From assembly GCF_003323745.1 (NCBI RefSeq), contig NZ_QOIL01000006.1, forward strand, positions 186,001 to 250,000: 64,000 bases of DNA. Direction: 5' to 3'. Shown one piece after another: positions 27,311-33,170 of the stretch (position 1 is the stretch's first letter; every line of letters starts with the position of its first letter). The DNA comes from Sphaerisporangium album (GTDB lineage Bacteria; Actinomycetota; Actinomycetes; Streptosporangiales; Streptosporangiaceae). The notes beneath the pieces were generated by a model. It made no database searches and had not been told where the DNA came from. It saw nothing but the letters and a program-made list of their open reading frames with translations. Both the position numbers and the translations under genes were made by a program.

Positions 27311-28564
27311 TCAGCCGGTTGTCGCGGTGGCCGGAGAGGTGTGCGCGGGATCGTCGGCCGCGGACGCCTCCGCAGTGGAGGGGTCCGCCGAGACCGGGCC
27401 GGAGGTCGGACCCGGGCCGCGCCGGGCCGCGTGCGTGCCTCCCCCGCGCCCGCCCCGGCCCGAACGCCACCGCGGCAGGCCCATGAGCATCAGCACGGCG
27501 AGGGCGAACACCACGACCGCGGGGAACACGAACAGCGGCACGCCGCCCACCGAGAGGCCGACGACGGGCGCCGCGAACAGGAACGTCCACGCGTACATGA
27601 TCAGCACCGTGCGGCGGTGCGAGTGGCCGACCTGCAGCAGGCGGTGGTGCAGGTGGCCGCGGTCGGGCGCGAACGGGGACTTGCCGTACGACGTGCGCCG
27701 GACCACCGCCATCACCAGGTCGGCCAGCGGGAGCACCATCACCGCGAGGGGCAGCAGGATCGGCAGGACGAGGGGGAAGCGGTTGATGTCCGCGGCGCCC
27801 TGGTAGTCGACCGTGCCGGTCACCGTGACCACCGACGTCGCCAGCACCAGGCCGATGAGCATCGCGCCGGTGTCGCCCATGAAGATCTTGGCGGGGTGGA
27901 AGTTGTGCGGCAGGAAGCCGAGGCACATGCCGATGAGGATCGCCGTGATCGCCGCCGTGACGCTCAGCCGGCCCTGGTCGAGGCTCTCGGTCAGCGCGAT
28001 GGTCCACGCGAACGTCGCCATCGCGGCGATGCAGACGATGCCCGCCGCCAGTCCGTCCAGTCCGTCCACGAAGTTGACCGCGTTGATGGCGACCACCACC
28101 ACGAGGATCGTGATGATCGTCTGCAACGTGCTGTCGAGGTTCAGCGTGTTCCCGTCGGGCAGCGGGACCCACAGCAGCGTGAGCTTGAAGACCACCAGAA
28201 TGCCGGCGGCGGCGATCTGCCCGCCCAGCTTGACCAGGGCGTCCATGCCCCACCAGTCGTCCAGGAAGCCGGTGATCACGATGACCCCGCCCGCGAGCGC
28301 CAGGGCGATCACGGTCTGCCCCTCGCCCATCTTCGGCTCGGCGAGCGTGGCCCCGATGTGGTCGAGACGGGTGGCGACGAACAGCCCCGCCAGCATTCCG
28401 GCGTACATCGCCAGGCCGCCGAGGCGGGGGGTGCGGACGGTGTGCACGTCGCGCTCGCGGATCTCCGGCGCGGCGCCGATGCGGAGCGCGAAGACCCTGA
28501 CCAGGGGGACCAGCAGGTAGGTAACCGCGGCCGCCACCAGTGCTATGAGTGTGTATTCGCGCAC
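27311..28564 (-). CDS. wecA: decaprenyl-phosphate N-acetylglucosaminephosphotransferase (MraY/WecA family)
   Basis: A 417-residue polytopic membrane enzyme transferring GlcNAc-1-phosphate from UDP-GlcNAc to decaprenyl phosphate, the first step of arabinogalactan linker or other wall-glycan synthesis. Around ten hydrophobic helices are seen. Catalytic loops are intact: the aspartate-rich NFVDGLDGLAAG, HPAKIFMGDTGAMLIG and the histidine loop DRGHLHHRLLQVGHSHRR. The last 60 residues are a Gly/Arg then Ala/Thr/Pro-rich cytoplasmic tail, longer than usual. Its position just upstream of atpI equals that of rfe/wecA (Rv1302) in mycobacteria. The gap to glyA upstream is 60 bp and contains a hairpin. 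Confidence 0.93.
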   Translation of the reverse strand: MREYTLIALVAAAVTYLLVPLVRVFALRIGAAPEIRERDVHTVRTPRLGGLAMYAGMLAGLFVATRLDHIGATLAEPKMGEGQTVIALALAGGVIVITGFLDDWWGMDALVKLGGQIAAAGILVVFKLTLLWVPLPDGNTLNLDSTLQTIITILVVVVAINAVNFVDGLDGLAAGIVCIAAMATFAWTIALTESLDQGRLSVTAAITAILIGMCLGFLPHNFHPAKIFMGDTGAMLIGLVLATSVVTVTGTVDYQGAADINRFPLVLPILLPLAVMVLPLADLVMAVVRRTSYGKSPFAPDRGHLHHRLLQVGHSHRRTVLIMYAWTFLFAAPVVGLSVGGVPLFVFPAVVVFALAVLMLMGLPRWRSGRGGRGGGTHAARRGPGPTSGPVSADPSTAEASAADDPAHTSPATATTG

Positions 28565-28624: not shown

Positions 28625-29935
28625 TTAACCCCGTGGATATGCCGGGTGACCACGTGTGAGCCGGGTCACCCGCTCGGCCACCGACGTTATCGCACCTGGA
28701 TCCCCCACCGCTTGCGCCACCATCGACGCGATCTCCTTCATCTCCGGCACGCCCATGCCCTGCGTCGTCACGCACGGCGTGCCCAGGCGGATGCCGGAGG
28801 TCACCGTGGGCGGCTCGGGATCGTACGGGATCGTGTTGCGGTTGAGCGTGATCCCCGCGCGGGCGCACGCGTTCTCGGCCTCGGCCCCCGAGACGCCGAG
28901 GTCGCGCAGGTCGATGAGCGTCAGATGGGTGTCGGTGCCGCCGGAGACCGGGCGCATCCCCTCCACCGCCAGCGCGTCCGCCAGCGCCCGCGCGTTGGCC
29001 ACCACCTGCTCGGCGTACGCGCGGAAACCCGGGCGGGACGCCTCGCCGAACGCCACCGCCTTGGCCGCGATCGCGTGCATCAGCGGCCCCCCCTGCGTGA
29101 ACGGGAACACCGCGCGGTCGACGCGCGAGGCGAGTTCGTCCGTGCACAGGATCGCCCCGCCCCTCGGGCCGCGCAGCGCCTTGTGCGTCGTGAACGTCAC
29201 CACGTCGGCGTACGGCACCGGGGACGGGACCGCGCCGCCCGCCACCAGGCCGATCGTGTGCGCGGCGTCCGCGAGCAGCCACGCCCCCACCTCGTCGGCG
29301 ATGCCACGGAACACGGCGAAGTCGATGAGCCTCGGGTACGCCGTGGCGCCGCAGATGATCAGCTTCGGCTGGTGGCGCAGCGCCAGGTCGCGCACCTCGT
29401 CGTAGTCGATCGTCTCGGTGTCGCGCCGCACGCCGTACGCCACGACGTCGAACCACCGGCCCGAGAAGTTGACCTTCGAGCCGTGCGTCAGGTGACCGCC
29501 GTGCGAGAGGGCCATGGCCAGCATGGTGTCGCCCGGCTGGAGCAGCGCGGCGTAGGCGGCGAGGTTCGCGGAGGCCCCCGAATGCGGCTGGACGTTGGCG
29601 TGGTCGGCCCCGAACAGCTGCTTGGCGCGGTCGGTCGCCAGCCGCTCGGCGCGGTCGACCACCTCGCAGCCGCCGTAGTAGCGCCTGCCCGGGTAGCCCT
29701 CGGCGTACTTGTTGGTGAGCGTCGAGCCGAGCGCGGCCATCACCGCGGGCGAGGTGAAGTTCTCGCTGGCGATCAGTTGCAGGCCGGCGCGCTGGCGTTC
29801 GAGCTCGTCCAGCAGCACCAGCGCGATCTCGGGGTCGGTGCGCAGCAGCTCGGAGAAGTCGGGCCCGTAGAAGACTTTCTCGCCCGCGGCCGCGTCGCCG
29901 GGCCGCCGCTCGTGGTCGCGCCCTCTCGCCCGCAT
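28625..29935 (-). CDS. glyA: serine hydroxymethyltransferase
   Basis: A 436-residue PLP enzyme converting serine and tetrahydrofolate to glycine and methylene-THF. The PLP lysine lies in [13 protein letters not shown]; other landmarks are [33 protein letters not shown] and [17 protein letters not shown] at 29935 is the only good in-frame start before the conserved region, although GAGGAGGGG lies rather far upstream (about 17 bases). It follows the WXG100-like gene across 101 bp, a gap that holds a perfect 26-bp palindrome. The sequence differs from GlyA1-type housekeeping enzymes at several places (HKALRG rather than HKTLRG), so a second paralogue elsewhere in the genome is possible. Confidence 0.95.
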
Positions 29936-30010: not shown

Positions 30011-30036
30011 CACCCTCCGGCACGCGTGCCGGAGGG
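30011..30036 (-). terminator. perfect 26-bp palindrome directly after the WXG100-like gene
   Basis: Bases 30011-30036 read identically on both strands (a 13-base half-site ACCCTCCGGCACG and its complement). The element begins at the base next to the stop codon of the 127-residue gene and ends 76 bases before the glyA start. A cruciform or GC-rich hairpin here should terminate or strongly attenuate transcription entering glyA; there is no U-run. Confidence 0.7.
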
Positions 30037-30420
30037 TCAGCTGTAGGCGTGCGGAGCCGAGGAGGAGACCGGCACCCAGCGGGGGGTGTCCGCCGCCTGG
30101 TCGCTGATCGCGGTCAGCACGGCCTGCCGGTACATGCCGAGCCGCGTGCGCCACTCGCCCATGTCCTGCACGTACCGCTCGGCCACCGGGGCGTCCCAGA
30201 CGTCGCGGCTCCGCGCCATCTGATACGCCTTGTCCAGTGAGCCGGTGAGCCCCTCCAGCAGGGGCTGGGCCTGCTGCCAGAGATCGACGAGCTTCTGGTA
30301 CTCGGGGTTGAAGCGCCAGCTCGTCGCCTGCCCGTCCGGGCTGAACGGATCTGGCGACGCCGATACGGGCGGCATCTCCCCAGGCTGCAAGGGCTTCGGC
30401 GCCGGCGGATCCGAGTACAT
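30037..30420 (-). CDS. WXG100-like small helical protein
   Basis: A 127-residue protein. After a proline-rich N-terminus (residues 1-38) it has helix 40-72, a turn, and helix 77-110. The turn reads W75-D-A-P-V-A-E-R-Y83, which fits the WxGxxAxx[FY] pattern of WXG100/ESX proteins with Gly changed to Ala; a second tryptophan follows at 90. No canonical YxxxD/E secretion tail is present. ATG 30420 follows GAGAGG. It starts 55 bp after the Lys/Asp-rich gene on the same strand and both are bounded by strong hairpins, so they form a two-gene unit. ESX-type secretion or an envelope role is inferred; no EccC, EccD or mycosin gene is in the window. Confidence 0.75.
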
Positions 30421-30475
30421 GTCTTTGTGGCCTCTCTTCGTTCGGCGGGTTCGGGCGCCTTCGCGGCGAACGGCT

Positions 30476-32062
30476 TCAGGAAGCGGCCGACGAGGAGCGA
30501 GGGCCGTCCGAGGCGGGGGTGTGGCTCGGGCCCGGGTCCTCGGTCGCGTCGCCGTTGTAGGCGGGGTCGGTGAACGGGTCGCCGGTGTAGGGGTCGGCGG
30601 AGGGGCTTTGGGCGGCGCTGAGATCGCCAAGCGCGGTCGAGGAGTCCGGAGCCATGTAGACACCCGACTGCACCTGTCCTCCCGCCTGCACGACGCCCTG
30701 AGGGGCGGCGGCGGCCGGGTCAGGGGTCTGGGCGCCCGAATCGGACGGCTGGGCGCCGGAGTCGGGCGGCAGGGGCGCCGACGGCTTGGCAGAGACGGAG
30801 GGATCGCCGGGCTGGACGTAACCCGTCGGCCCGTCGGAGTGCGGATGCCCCGGCTGCGCGCCGTCCGGGGGCACGACCACCGGCTGCTCCATGGGCGGGA
30901 TCTTGTCCATGTTCTGCGACAGCCAGTCGAGGTGCTCGGCCGTCGGCGGCTTCATGGTGACCTCGACCACCCGGACGCCGTCGACGTTGATCACCCGCGT
31001 GCGCTCCTGGCTGGTGTCGATGTCGTGGGCGTTGTCCGGTTTCGGGGTGTCCAGCGGGCCGTCGCCCCCGCCGCTCTGCGGCGCGGTCGGGTCGACGTAC
31101 CGGGGCTGGTCGGCCTTGGGAGCGGGGTCGGCCTTCGGCGCATGGTCGGCCTTCGGCGCGGGATCCGACTTGGGACTGGAATCGGCCTTCGGCGCCGGGT
31201 CGCCCTTGTCCTTGGGGGTCGAATCACCCTTGGGCGCGTCGTTCTTGTCCGGCTTGTCGCCCTGGGGGGCGTCGTGCCTGTCCGGATGGTCGGCCTTCGG
31301 GGCCACGTCCTTCGTGTCGTGCTTGGGAGCCTCGTGACCGACCGGCTTGTCCGTACGGGGAGCGTCCTGCTTGTCGGCCTGCGGCGGCTCGACCTTGTGG
31401 GTCTGGTCGTTCTTCGGTGGCTCCACCTTGTGGGTCTGGTCGTTCTTCGGCGGGTCCTGCTTGTCGACCTTGGGATCGTCCCGCTTCTCGCCCTTCGGCG
31501 CGTCCTTGTCGGCCTTGGGGGTGTCGTCCTTGTCCGCCTTCGGGGGCAGGTCCGCCGAGTGCTTGTCCCGATCGTGCGGCTTGGCGTCCTTGTCGGGTTT
31601 GTCGTCCTTCGGCGCGTCGTGCTTGTCCGGCTTATCGGTCTTGTCGGGCTTGTCGCCGGACGCGTGGTCCTTCGGCTTGTCCTTGTTCTGCGAGTCGGAC
31701 GTAGGGGCGCCGTTCTTGTCCCCCTTATCGCCGCCCTTATCGGACTTATCGGACTTATCGCCGTCGTCCTTCGCGTCCTTCTTCTCGGGAGCCGTCTGCT
31801 TCATGGTCTTGGGACCGGCCGGGCCCTCGTTCTGCTTCTCCTTCTTCTCCAGCAGCACGAGGCGGGCGTTGACGTCCTTGACCAGCGTCTCTCCCGCGTC
31901 GGCCACCTGCGCGGGCCGGTGGATCGCCGGGACGGAGAGGCCGGCCGCACTCGTGAGCCGGCTGATGCGGGACTCGACCGTGCGCATCTGATCACCGGCA
32001 CGCCCGACCTCGGCCAGCAGCTCGCGGACCAGCTTGGGGTCCATGCCGTCCAGCTTGCCCAT
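30476..32062 (-). CDS. Lys/Asp/Pro-rich low-complexity protein partnered with the WXG100-like gene
   Basis: A 528-residue protein of four parts: an N-terminal helical region (1-75, MDPKLVRELLAEVGRAGDQM and ARLVLLEKKEK); a highly charged linker (76-320) built of DKPDK, KADKD, PAPKAD and similar motifs; a short possibly folded segment (about 350-392, RVINVDGVRVVEVTMKPPTAEHLDWLS); and a Pro/Ser/Gly/Gln tail. The linker is near charge-balanced in Lys and Asp. It has no signal peptide or membrane helix. The ATG at 32062 follows AGGGAGG at good spacing; ATG 32044 is an alternative. Its N-terminus resembles ESX-associated helical hairpins. It appears to be cotranscribed with the WXG100-like gene. 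Function unknown. Confidence 0.72.
   Translation of the reverse strand: MGKLDGMDPKLVRELLAEVGRAGDQMRTVESRISRLTSAAGLSVPAIHRPAQVADAGETLVKDVNARLVLLEKKEKQNEGPAGPKTMKQTAPEKKDAKDDGDKSDKSDKGGDKGDKNGAPTSDSQNKDKPKDHASGDKPDKTDKPDKHDAPKDDKPDKDAKPHDRDKHSADLPPKADKDDTPKADKDAPKGEKRDDPKVDKQDPPKNDQTHKVEPPKNDQTHKVEPPQADKQDAPRTDKPVGHEAPKHDTKDVAPKADHPDRHDAPQGDKPDKNDAPKGDSTPKDKGDPAPKADSSPKSDPAPKADHAPKADPAPKADQPRYVDPTAPQSGGGDGPLDTPKPDNAHDIDTSQERTRVINVDGVRVVEVTMKPPTAEHLDWLSQNMDKIPPMEQPVVVPPDGAQPGHPHSDGPTGYVQPGDPSVSAKPSAPLPPDSGAQPSDSGAQTPDPAAAAPQGVVQAGGQVQSGVYMAPDSSTALGDLSAAQSPSADPYTGDPFTDPAYNGDATEDPGPSHTPASDGPRSSSAAS
31388..31453. repeat. tandem 33-bp duplication in the charged linker gene
   Basis: Units 31388-31420 and 31421-31453 are nearly identical (two or three differences) and encode the repeated 11 residues PKNDQTHKVEP. 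This is the sharpest of many looser DKPDK/PKAD repeats in the linker and points to recent in-frame expansion. Confidence 0.85.
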
Positions 32063-32244
32063 GGCGCCTCCCTGCTCGTGGTCGCGCTCCGCCGGTCGCT
32101 CTGTGGCAGGGATCACGCCCTGCCCGCAGCCATGCTCCCTCGCCACGGCCCATCGCTCAAGAGCGCGGACGCGGTTCACGGTACTGTCCGTGGCCGTCCG
32201 CGCCACCCGGCGATAGCCACAGGGCATGAATCACGGTGACGCGC

Positions 32245-32268
32245 CGTGGCGGGGCGGGCCCCGCCACG
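32245..32268 (-). terminator. 11-bp-stem hairpin after the sua5 gene
   Basis: CGTGGCGGGGC at 32245-32255 pairs perfectly with 32258-32268 over a 2-nt gap. It begins 8 bases after the stop codon of the threonylcarbamoyl-AMP synthase gene, and ends the prfA-prmC-sua5 transcript before the Lys/Asp-rich gene. Confidence 0.7.
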
Positions 32269-32276
32269 CGCCGTGG

Positions 32277-33170
32277 TCAGACCCCGCCGTCGGCCTTCCT
32301 GGCCTGCTCGACGGGCTTGTCCAGCGGCTTGTCCAGCGGCTTCGGCTCCCCGGCCGTCGCCTCTGCCGGCTTCGGCTCGTCCGCGATCGTCTCGACGGGC
32401 TTGGGGGTCTCGACCGACTCGAGGGGCTTCGGCGTCTCGGCCGGACTCGTCGTGGCGTCCTTGTCGTCGGTGCCGGTCACGCCGGTGTCGCCGGGAAGAG
32501 AGCGCCGGGTGTCGACCTCGGGCTCCCCGTCCGTGGCGATGTACCCGACGATCGCGCGCAGCTTCTCGACCGGCACGGCGCCCTTGCGCAGCACGCGGGG
32601 CACCGGCGTGGTCAGGTCGACGATCGTGGAGGGGGTGTCATCGGCGCAGGGCCCGCCGTCCAGGTAGACGCCGACCGCCTCTCCGAGCTGGGCCTCGGCG
32701 TCGGCCGCGGTGGTGGCGGGCGGCGCGCCGGAGCGGTTGGCGCTGCTCACCGCCATCGGCCCCGTCTCCTTGAGCAGTTCCAGCGCGAGGGCGTGCAGCG
32801 GCATGCGAACCGCGACCGTGCCCTTGGAATCGCCGAGATCCCAGGTGAGGGACCGGCTCGCCCGGCAGACCAGCGTCAGCGGCCCGGGCCAGAACGCGTC
32901 GATGAGGTCCTGCCCGTAGGCGCCGAGATCCTCGATCAGGGCGGTCGCCGCCCGTACGGTGCCCACCAGCACGGGGACGGGCATGTCCCTGCCCCGGCCC
33001 TTGGCCTCCAGCAGCTCCGCCACCGCCGAGGGCGTGAAGGCGTCGGCGCCGATGCCGTAGACGGTGTCGGTCGGTATCACGACCAGCTCGCCCGCGCGGA
33101 TAGCGGCCGCCGCGTCGGCGAGCCCGGTCGCGCGCTCCTCGCTGTTCGAACAGTCATAACGTCGGATCAC
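32277..33170 (-). CDS. L-threonylcarbamoyladenylate synthase (TsaC/Sua5) with low-complexity tail
   Basis: A 297-residue protein; the YrdC fold covers about 1-210 (LVVIPTDTVYGIGADAF, KGRGRDMPVPVLVG, GPLTLVCRAS, VAVRMPLH, SSANRSGAPP). It makes threonylcarbamoyl-AMP for t6A37 in ANN-decoding tRNAs. Residues after about 212 form a Pro/Lys/Glu/Thr tail with repeated ETPKP, DEPKPAE and GEPKPLDKP motifs instead of the Sua5 domain of archaeal/eukaryotic proteins. GTG 33170 (MIRRYDCSNSEER) follows GGGAGGA. It is 60 bp after prmC; the order prfA-prmC-sua5 is conserved in actinobacteria. The tail looks like the linker of the next gene and may share its origin. Confidence 0.94.
   Translation of the reverse strand: MIRRYDCSNSEERATGLADAAAAIRAGELVVIPTDTVYGIGADAFTPSAVAELLEAKGRGRDMPVPVLVGTVRAATALIEDLGAYGQDLIDAFWPGPLTLVCRASRSLTWDLGDSKGTVAVRMPLHALALELLKETGPMAVSSANRSGAPPATTAADAEAQLGEAVGVYLDGGPCADDTPSTIVDLTTPVPRVLRKGAVPVEKLRAIVGYIATDGEPEVDTRRSLPGDTGVTGTDDKDATTSPAETPKPLESVETPKPVETIADEPKPAEATAGEPKPLDKPLDKPVEQARKADGGV

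Follow-up and report, generated by a model that had tools for sequence, protein, structure and literature searches.

We analyzed a stretch of 64,000 nucleotides (nt) from the 9.3 Mb genome of Sphaerisporangium album (contig NZ_QOIL01000006.1, positions 186,001 to 250,000; hereafter, the window) and focused on two neighboring minus-strand genes, designated P2 (30476..32062, 528 amino acids (aa)) and P1 (30037..30420, 127 aa), that are separated by 55 nt. An earlier note, made from the letters of the window, had placed two genes here and described the smaller product as a 127-residue protein carrying W-D-A-P-V-A-E-R-Y, both of which were confirmed. The minus-strand gene order is rho-prfA-prmC-sua5-P2-P1-glyA-wecA-atpI-atpB, in which the identities of sua5, glyA, and wecA were checked against Pfam and the names rho, prfA, prmC, atpI, and atpB are those we presume for the remaining neighbors. 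As described below, P1 and the N-terminal part of P2 are homologous to the two halves of a wider family of paired genes, some of which lie near EccC-like ATPase genes, and we regard the pair, as far as its sequence allows, as a variant of a type VII-style substrate pair with putative export and complex formation.

P2 translates into a protein composed of a GIDP-type N-terminal domain, a disordered tail, and a C-terminal unit. Residues 1-80 (31823..32062, minus strand), which start with MGKLDGMDP, form the domain homologous to the GIDP domain introduced below, as judged by hhalign and a GIDP hidden Markov model (HMM); the conserved domain covers approximately 78 residues, and G6, M7, P9, L11, V12, and R13, among others, are invariant in 74 proteins. 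Residues 81-306 (31145..31822, minus strand) are, by composition, a low-complexity tail rich in Lys, Asp, and Pro, and residues 307-443 (30734..31144, minus strand) hold the conserved C-terminal unit (PP..L..I.PmDmP.V.VP......PDGP.G), which recurs in P2 proteins. The orthologues range from 394 to 1143 aa in length (n = 73), and their tails (n = 74) have a charged fraction of 0.14 to 0.37 and a mean net charge of -0.08 per residue. The earlier note had called the tail a Lys/Asp polyampholyte. This character is strongest in the genus of the window, where Lys makes up 6-12% of the tail in six proteins, with the peak of 12% in the window itself; however, it was rejected as a conserved property, as tail Lys amounts to 2 to 10% elsewhere, and the tails outside the genus are rich in Pro, Gly, Asp, and Glu. 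The C-terminal unit (PmDMP...VP.GEWG...PDGPxG) is present in 1-6 copies in 70 of the 74 P2 proteins, with the search seeds drawn from 55 of these 70. Among 60 relatives searched, it was found in 18 genomes, all of which bear the pair, and the matches listed all fall within P2 genes; the pair-bearing genome G014 was without a match. A Pfam search of P2 returned no family, including no LXG, DUF6571 (PF20211), or toxin family, and a scan of three P2 orthologues likewise found no LXG or toxin family; a Pfam-recognizable toxin was therefore rejected as the identity of P2. The NCBIfam search of P1 and P2 gave one weak match to P2 (E 0.05), which we took as chance. At one locus, that of Thermocatellispora tengchongensis (L105, 8799-10000), the P2 frame ends about 1.2 kb before P1, owing either to an error in the assembly or to a frame change within the tail.

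P1 has a Pro-rich N-terminus of 35 aa followed by two likely helices around W-D-A-P, which were assigned from the sequence without a prediction tool. Its motif W75-D-A-P-V-A-E-R-Y83 (30172..30198, minus strand) aligns without gaps to the W-T-G-P-x-A-x-R-F of its paralogues, a group of approximately 100-aa "PNP...WxGP" proteins that we designate PAR. Invariant residues in 81 P1 sequences include W75, A77, V79, and R82; the Gly of WxG is Ala (A77) in all 81, and most PAR paralogues keep W-x-G. The pattern W-x-x-x-D/E is merely scattered in P1, with 11 occurrences in the 81 sequences. The earlier note had regarded P1 as WXG100-like, which did not hold at the level of family membership. The Pfam search of P1 found no family at E<=10, a home-made WXG100 HMM matched none of the 81 P1 sequences at E<1e-3 (best 0.034, window 0.39; no decoys up to E 10), and hhalign of P1 against WXG100 gave a probability of 1.9, no better than the 1.3 of the reversed control. 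P1 was rejected as an ordinary WXG100 (PF06013) protein on these grounds. A profile search of the PDB with the P1 family found nothing meaningful. Neither P1 nor P2 has a stretch hydrophobic enough for a membrane helix, judged by sequence: their top 19-residue Kyte-Doolittle means are 1.41 and 1.42, respectively, and the membrane-helix level is about 1.6.

The homology of the pair emerged from the distant P1 matches in relatives, which are mostly PAR proteins with V-W-T-G-P-x-A-x-R-F. PAR genes adjoin genes for proteins of 609-756 aa, most of which carry a domain starting with F/Y-x-G-I-D-P (the GIDP domain), and the S. album genome itself has two such PAR/GIDP pairs (L083 and L279). By hhalign, the P1 family matched PAR with a probability of 97.5 (E 6e-12, 84 ungapped columns; reversed control 0.3), and the N-terminal domain of P2 (P2N) matched GIDP with a probability of 95 (E 3.5e-8, 71 ungapped columns; reversed control 0.2). 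A PAR HMM built without P1 recovered 81 of 81 P1 sequences at E<1e-3 (window 4.3e-13; decoys 0/162), and a GIDP HMM built without P2 recovered 51 of 74 P2N at the same threshold (window 5e-7; decoys 0/148) when applied to the first 90 residues of P2 with its filters switched off; on whole open reading frames with default filters, it recovered only 25 of 73 P2. By these profile comparisons, P1 belongs with the PAR family as a divergent relative. PAR-type matches (E<=1e-6) occur in 36 of 296 genomes of the class, and in the PAR members scanned no Pfam model over the cut-off was found for the small proteins. PAR may in turn be a divergent WXG100-type family: the PAR HMM matches 8 of 28 WXG100 proteins and the WXG100 HMM matches 3 of 29 PAR proteins (one of 30 PAR and two of 30 WXG100 translations were left out beforehand as too short), hhalign of PAR against WXG100 gave 55 vs 20 for the reversed control, and a WxGP profile of 26 rows, the window P1 among them, hit S. 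aureus EsxA first in the PDB (E 0.004), with unrelated coiled coils following from 0.045. The P2N/GIDP profile had as its best PDB match a 28-residue stretch of a mitotic-spindle protein (E 0.0012), which we took as chance. The F/Y-x-G-I-D of GIDP domains is formally [FY]xxxD; only 31 of 74 P2 proteins have an aromatic residue at the corresponding position, where the window has Leu, and we draw no conclusion from this pattern.

Pairing is a common feature of the wider family, as 36 of the 47 stretches surrounding PAR genes contain a GIDP gene on the same strand and no more than 1.5 kb away (excluded from the 47 were L084 and L085, which have no PAR gene, and L285, L288, and L289, which hold P1/P2 orthologues). 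The 11 GIDP seeds were chosen by motif near WxGP genes, so adjacency in the seed loci is partly circular; it was seen in 9 of 10 stretches of L074-L083 and in 27 of 37 later stretches, 2 of these being seed loci. Of 28 large partner proteins scanned, six match DUF6571 over the cut-off, five match it below the cut-off, and one carries Ntox17; in L273, the DUF6571 match (below cut-off) starts at the GIDP domain. DUF6571 found no mention in the literature searched. An EccC-like gene lies in seven PAR stretches (L074, L264, L273, L274, L278, L292, and L293), compared with none in 80 control loci (1.54 Mb), which all represent one syntenic position rather than sampling genomes at random. In L293 (8649-16898), from a genome of the same genus (G004), genes for a PAR protein, a GIDP protein, an EccC-like ATPase, and two WXG100 proteins follow in succession. 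The GIDP protein has a C-terminal Ntox17 domain (E 3e-10, over the cut-off) and the ATPase has two FtsK/SpoIIIE stretches, and this cluster resembles a toxin locus of type VII secretion within the wider GIDP/WxGP family. These results support the ESX-like core idea of the earlier note, as P1 and residues 1-78 of P2 each have homologues in a paired family that lies partly near EccC-like ATPase genes.

Two further types of GIDP-type protein were observed in this family. Those in L264 (7619-8725) and L274 (7196-8344), both near EccC-like genes, have a C-terminal HERVHAEQW stretch, which resembles what we take to be a metal-binding motif; the L264 protein has no Pfam match. Four others (L264, 14602-15747; L274, 9766-10926; L273, 11648-12844; and L278, 7060-8196) have a long acidic N-terminus rich in Asp, Ser, and Gly, and each lies beside a WxGP partner in a stretch holding EccC-like genes.

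The earlier note had proposed profile searches for co-occurrence and synteny as checks, and both turned out in favor of a genuine pair. A close P1 match (E<1e-40) was found in 19 of the 60 genomes searched (own genome included), all of the same family and with one close copy per genome, and P2 residues 1-80 were recovered in the same 19; the same-family set comprises 37 genomes, 19 with and 18 without the pair. Distant P1 matches (E 4.5e-10 to 8.7e-4) occur in seven genomes, five of which also hold a close match, and one pairless genome (G021) has a distant P1 relative only. No PAR or GIDP match was found around a second, weak P1 match in G008 (E 8.7e-4; L084) or around the single P2N match outside the family, in G039 (E 3.4e-4; L085). 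The order sua5-P2-P1-glyA is kept in 16 of 16 relatives with one contig spanning the place, and in two further relatives the contig end falls inside P2. A scan of genome contigs confirmed 103 relatives, from which 80 named loci were kept. Their titles name Sphaerisporangium as well as Streptosporangium, Microbispora, Acrocarpospora, Planobispora, Planotetraspora, Planomonospora, Microtetraspora, Nonomuraea, Herbidospora, and a few more, which we take to belong, like Sphaerisporangium, to the Streptosporangiaceae. P2N precedes P1 in 73 of the 80 loci, and in the other seven the contig stops within 1.7 kb ahead of P1, with P2N on another contig in two of these genomes; the genes are thus adjacent wherever the contig allows. 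In 19 of 73 loci, the P2 and P1 frames share 4 or 1 nt; counting these overlaps, the two genes are no more than 21 nt apart in 49 of 73, and the other 24 have longer gaps of 34-1198 nt.

Selection on the pair was estimated as ratios of nonsynonymous to synonymous substitution (dN/dS) by a rough Nei-Gojobori calculation, with prfA as the control gene. The dN/dS of P1 is approximately 0.10-0.13 against five Sphaerisporangium relatives and 0.22-0.36 against four relatives from other genera, that of P2 residues 1-78 is 0.13-0.24 (five relatives) and 0.48-0.60 (three relatives from other genera), and that of prfA is 0.09-0.12 within Sphaerisporangium and 0.22-0.28 against two genomes of other genera. 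P1 is under purifying selection. The distances of P1 and P2N correlate at 0.79 over 70 genomes; with prfA, prmC, and wecA removed, the partial correlation is 0.37, a value reached in 0 of 2000 permutations, vs 0.14 for either with sua5.

The earlier note had placed the two genes inside a conserved sua5-wecA backbone and described them as sealed off by hairpins at both ends. Upstream, P2 is indeed adjoined by the sua5-like gene (32277..33170, minus strand; Pfam Sua5_yciO_yrdC, E 9.5e-52); downstream, however, it is a glyA-like gene (28625..29935, minus strand, start approximate; Pfam SHMT, E 1.6e-154) that adjoins P1, at a distance of only about 100 bases, and the wecA-like gene (27311..28564, minus strand; Pfam Glycos_transf_4 (PF00953), E 2e-35) lies one gene beyond. 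Across loci, sua5 is found upstream in 70 of 73, glyA in 64 of 80, and wecA in 80 of 80. The hairpins exist, with an 11-bp stem directly after P1 (30012..30037, reaching one base into the P1 stop codon) and a second stem of 10 bp between sua5 and P2 (32245..32268), and their folding z-scores are -2.2 to -4.1 over both strands. However, a stem of at least 8 bp within 90 nt was seen after P1 in 2 of 73 loci (vs 1.8% of mononucleotide shuffles) and after sua5 in 9 of 66 (vs 1.3% of shuffles), and the hairpins were rejected as a conserved boundary.

Several variations of this neighborhood were seen. A glyA-like gene was not found in 16 of the 80 loci (e.g., L098, L142, and L163), and in all three of these glyA-less loci that were read, the wecA-like gene comes immediately after P1. 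No sua5 was found upstream of P2 in three Streptosporangium loci (L117, L126, and L145); the upstream region of L117 holds a polysaccharide deacetylase and a low-molecular-weight phosphatase, and that of L145 a glycosyltransferase. About 1.3 kb of extra sequence separates sua5 and P2 in L123, L137, L153, and L160 (Planobispora and Planomonospora), and in L153 this interval holds a LytR_cpsA_psr gene on the opposite strand. In the window, the C-terminal end of the Sua5-like neighbor (32277-32500) is of low complexity and rich in Lys, Pro, and Glu. Both wecA-like (PF00953) and LytR_cpsA_psr genes are wall-polymer genes, and the wecA-like neighbor and the LytR_cpsA_psr gene of L153 weakly fit an envelope role of the pair.

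Our favored reading, held with moderate confidence, is that P1 and P2 form a type VII-style substrate pair of the wider actinobacterial family of GIDP-domain proteins and WxGP partners, and that P2 is exported and has a role in the envelope. P1 would most likely pack against P2 residues 1-78 as a helical-hairpin pair, and the complex would be recognized by an EccC-like FtsK/SpoIIIE ATPase, perhaps of a non-canonical type, leading to the export of P2 with or without P1. A role of P1 as the targeting partner of P2 is suggested by analogy with PMC11217815: in the accessible part of that paper, predicted substrates often sit with small WXG100-related proteins, which its authors speculate to be co-secretion partners, and all of its new type VII secretion system (T7SS) subtypes have an ATPase and a WXG100 protein, one subtype being excepted in the discussion. 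The toxin or DUF6571-type body of some relatives would be replaced in P2 by a long, length-variable disordered tail plus a short conserved unit, and P2 would for this reason most likely be a protein that works within or across the cell wall, and not a toxin. A narrower version is more tentative, possible rather than probable: the pair would represent a toxin-free type VII branch in which a conserved targeting pair is exported by a non-canonical EccC-like ATPase system, and what was the payload is now a disordered, length-variable stalk that bears repeated C-terminal units and contributes to the cell surface of the Streptosporangiaceae.

Several observations weigh against this reading. The main weakness is that the YxxxD/E motif is absent after residue 85 of P1 (0 of 80); only 1 of 73 P2 proteins has it within residues 40-110. 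By sequence, P1 fails WXG100 membership; in the loci examined, the P1/P2 pair itself is not beside secretion genes, in agreement with the earlier note, which had placed it outside any ESX locus. Only 7 of the 47 PAR stretches hold an EccC-like gene, and 11 of the 47 have no adjacent GIDP match. The C-terminal unit was not found in four Planotetraspora P2 proteins, and the mirror-tree signal of P1 and P2N can come from linkage.

The choice of secretion route bears on one rival reading, that P2 is a substrate of the canonical ESX system (EccB/EccC/EccD/MycP) only. The S. album genome offers both possibilities, as contig C12 (L086/L087) has an ESX locus with EccB and a canonical EccC, and contig C7 (L088) carries a WXG100 gene and, next to it, a separate EccC-like gene for a 1545-aa protein. 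PMC4791881 reports ESX-4 clusters in the Streptosporangiales species that it examined. In the 37 same-family genomes, EccB is found in 18 of 19 pair-bearing vs 5 of 18 pairless genomes and canonical EccC over the cut-off in 18 of 19 vs 8 of 18, which would fit the canonical system; EccC-like proteins below the canonical cut-off are found in 19 of 19 vs 9 of 18. This set favors neither route, and the presence of both types of ATPase in pairless genomes (9 of 18 and 8 of 18) also counts against our favored reading. In a second set of 20 pair-bearing genomes from the named loci (six Planotetraspora were included on purpose, and two of the 20 repeat genomes of the first set), EccC-like proteins below the cut-off occur in 20 of 20, but canonical EccC over the cut-off in just 6 of 20 (0 of 6 Planotetraspora and 6 of 14 others); G062 has a partial 468-bit EccC match that may be a canonical gene. 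Over the two sets, the 37 distinct pair-bearing genomes all have an EccC-like ATPase gene. Because of shared descent among these genomes, the counts are not independent, and absences are provisional, since at most 35 candidates per genome were scored in the 20-genome set and at most 16 in the 37-genome set. Together with the persistence of the pair in G032, where EccB was not found, the second set makes exclusive dependence on the canonical system quite improbable.

Two other readings concern what the pair does. It could be a domesticated cytoplasmic complex, descended from a type VII pair that shed its payload and export signal and now acting within the cell, for instance as a scaffold at the membrane. 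The stable housekeeping place between sua5 (70/73) and wecA (80/80), the missing YxxxD/E motif, the lack of a linked secretion gene, and the Ala in place of the Gly of WxG in all 81 P1 sequences would all agree with this. Nevertheless, we consider it rather unlikely, given that both halves of the GIDP/WxGP family are conserved in P1/P2, that part of this family is linked to EccC-like genes, and that P2 has a long tail of disordered composition whose length varies greatly. There is still less to recommend P2 as an antibacterial effector with the C-terminal unit as its active part: although one GIDP relative among the 28 partner proteins scanned carries Ntox17, no Pfam toxin domain was found in P2 or in the three orthologues scanned, the roughly 100 bases between P1 and glyA in the window leave no immunity gene there, each genome has a single close copy, and the C-terminal unit is repeated 1-6 times and was not seen outside P2 genes. 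We regard a toxin role as very improbable.

Among known systems, the closest to P1/P2 are the GIDP-domain/WxGP-partner pairs assembled in this analysis, some large members of which match DUF6571 (PF20211). They share a homologous N-terminal domain and a homologous small partner, usually in adjacent genes, and P1/P2 resemble them in the PAR profile match, the GIDP-type start, and adjacency on one strand; unlike the relatives with DUF6571 (6/28) or Ntox17 (1/28), P2 carries a disordered tail together with a C-terminal unit of its own. LXG effectors with Lap1/Lap2 (T7SSb) likewise combine a large protein bearing an N-terminal helical targeting domain with a small helix-turn-helix partner, according to the accessible part of PMC9600955; however, no LXG or toxin domain was found in P2, there is one partner gene rather than two, and P1 has no conserved FxxxD. 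The PE/PPE and EsxA/EsxB heterodimers (T7SSa) are paired helical-hairpin proteins with a Trp in the turn, an arrangement that we propose for P1/P2 as well, but P1/P2 have no Pfam PE, PPE, or WXG100 match, lack YxxxD/E, and lie outside an ESX locus. As for WXG100 (PF06013) itself, W-D-A-P-V-A-E-R-Y of P1 aligns with the WxGP of paralogues that are themselves weakly WXG100-similar, whereas P1 lacks the Gly in 81 of 81 sequences, gives no family match, and has an extra Pro-rich N-terminus. No title on this gene pair stood among the matches listed in the literature on WXG100 and WXG100-like proteins, EccC, Ntox17, and type VII secretion. Overall, the interpretation in the earlier note is partly supported, being right in direction and wrong in details.

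Taken together, these results tie two uncharacterized genes in a stable Streptosporangiaceae neighborhood to a wider paired family, part of which lies near EccC-like ATPases, and the P1/P2 pair suggests, from its sequence relationships, an unstudied exported protein. Should P2 prove to be exported, it would be a fixed envelope substrate of type VII secretion in soil actinomycetes, probably not a toxin, and a candidate cargo of the non-canonical EccC-like ATPase. If the pair does represent a toxin-free branch, it would mean that effector modules of type VII systems can undergo domestication to become parts of the envelope.

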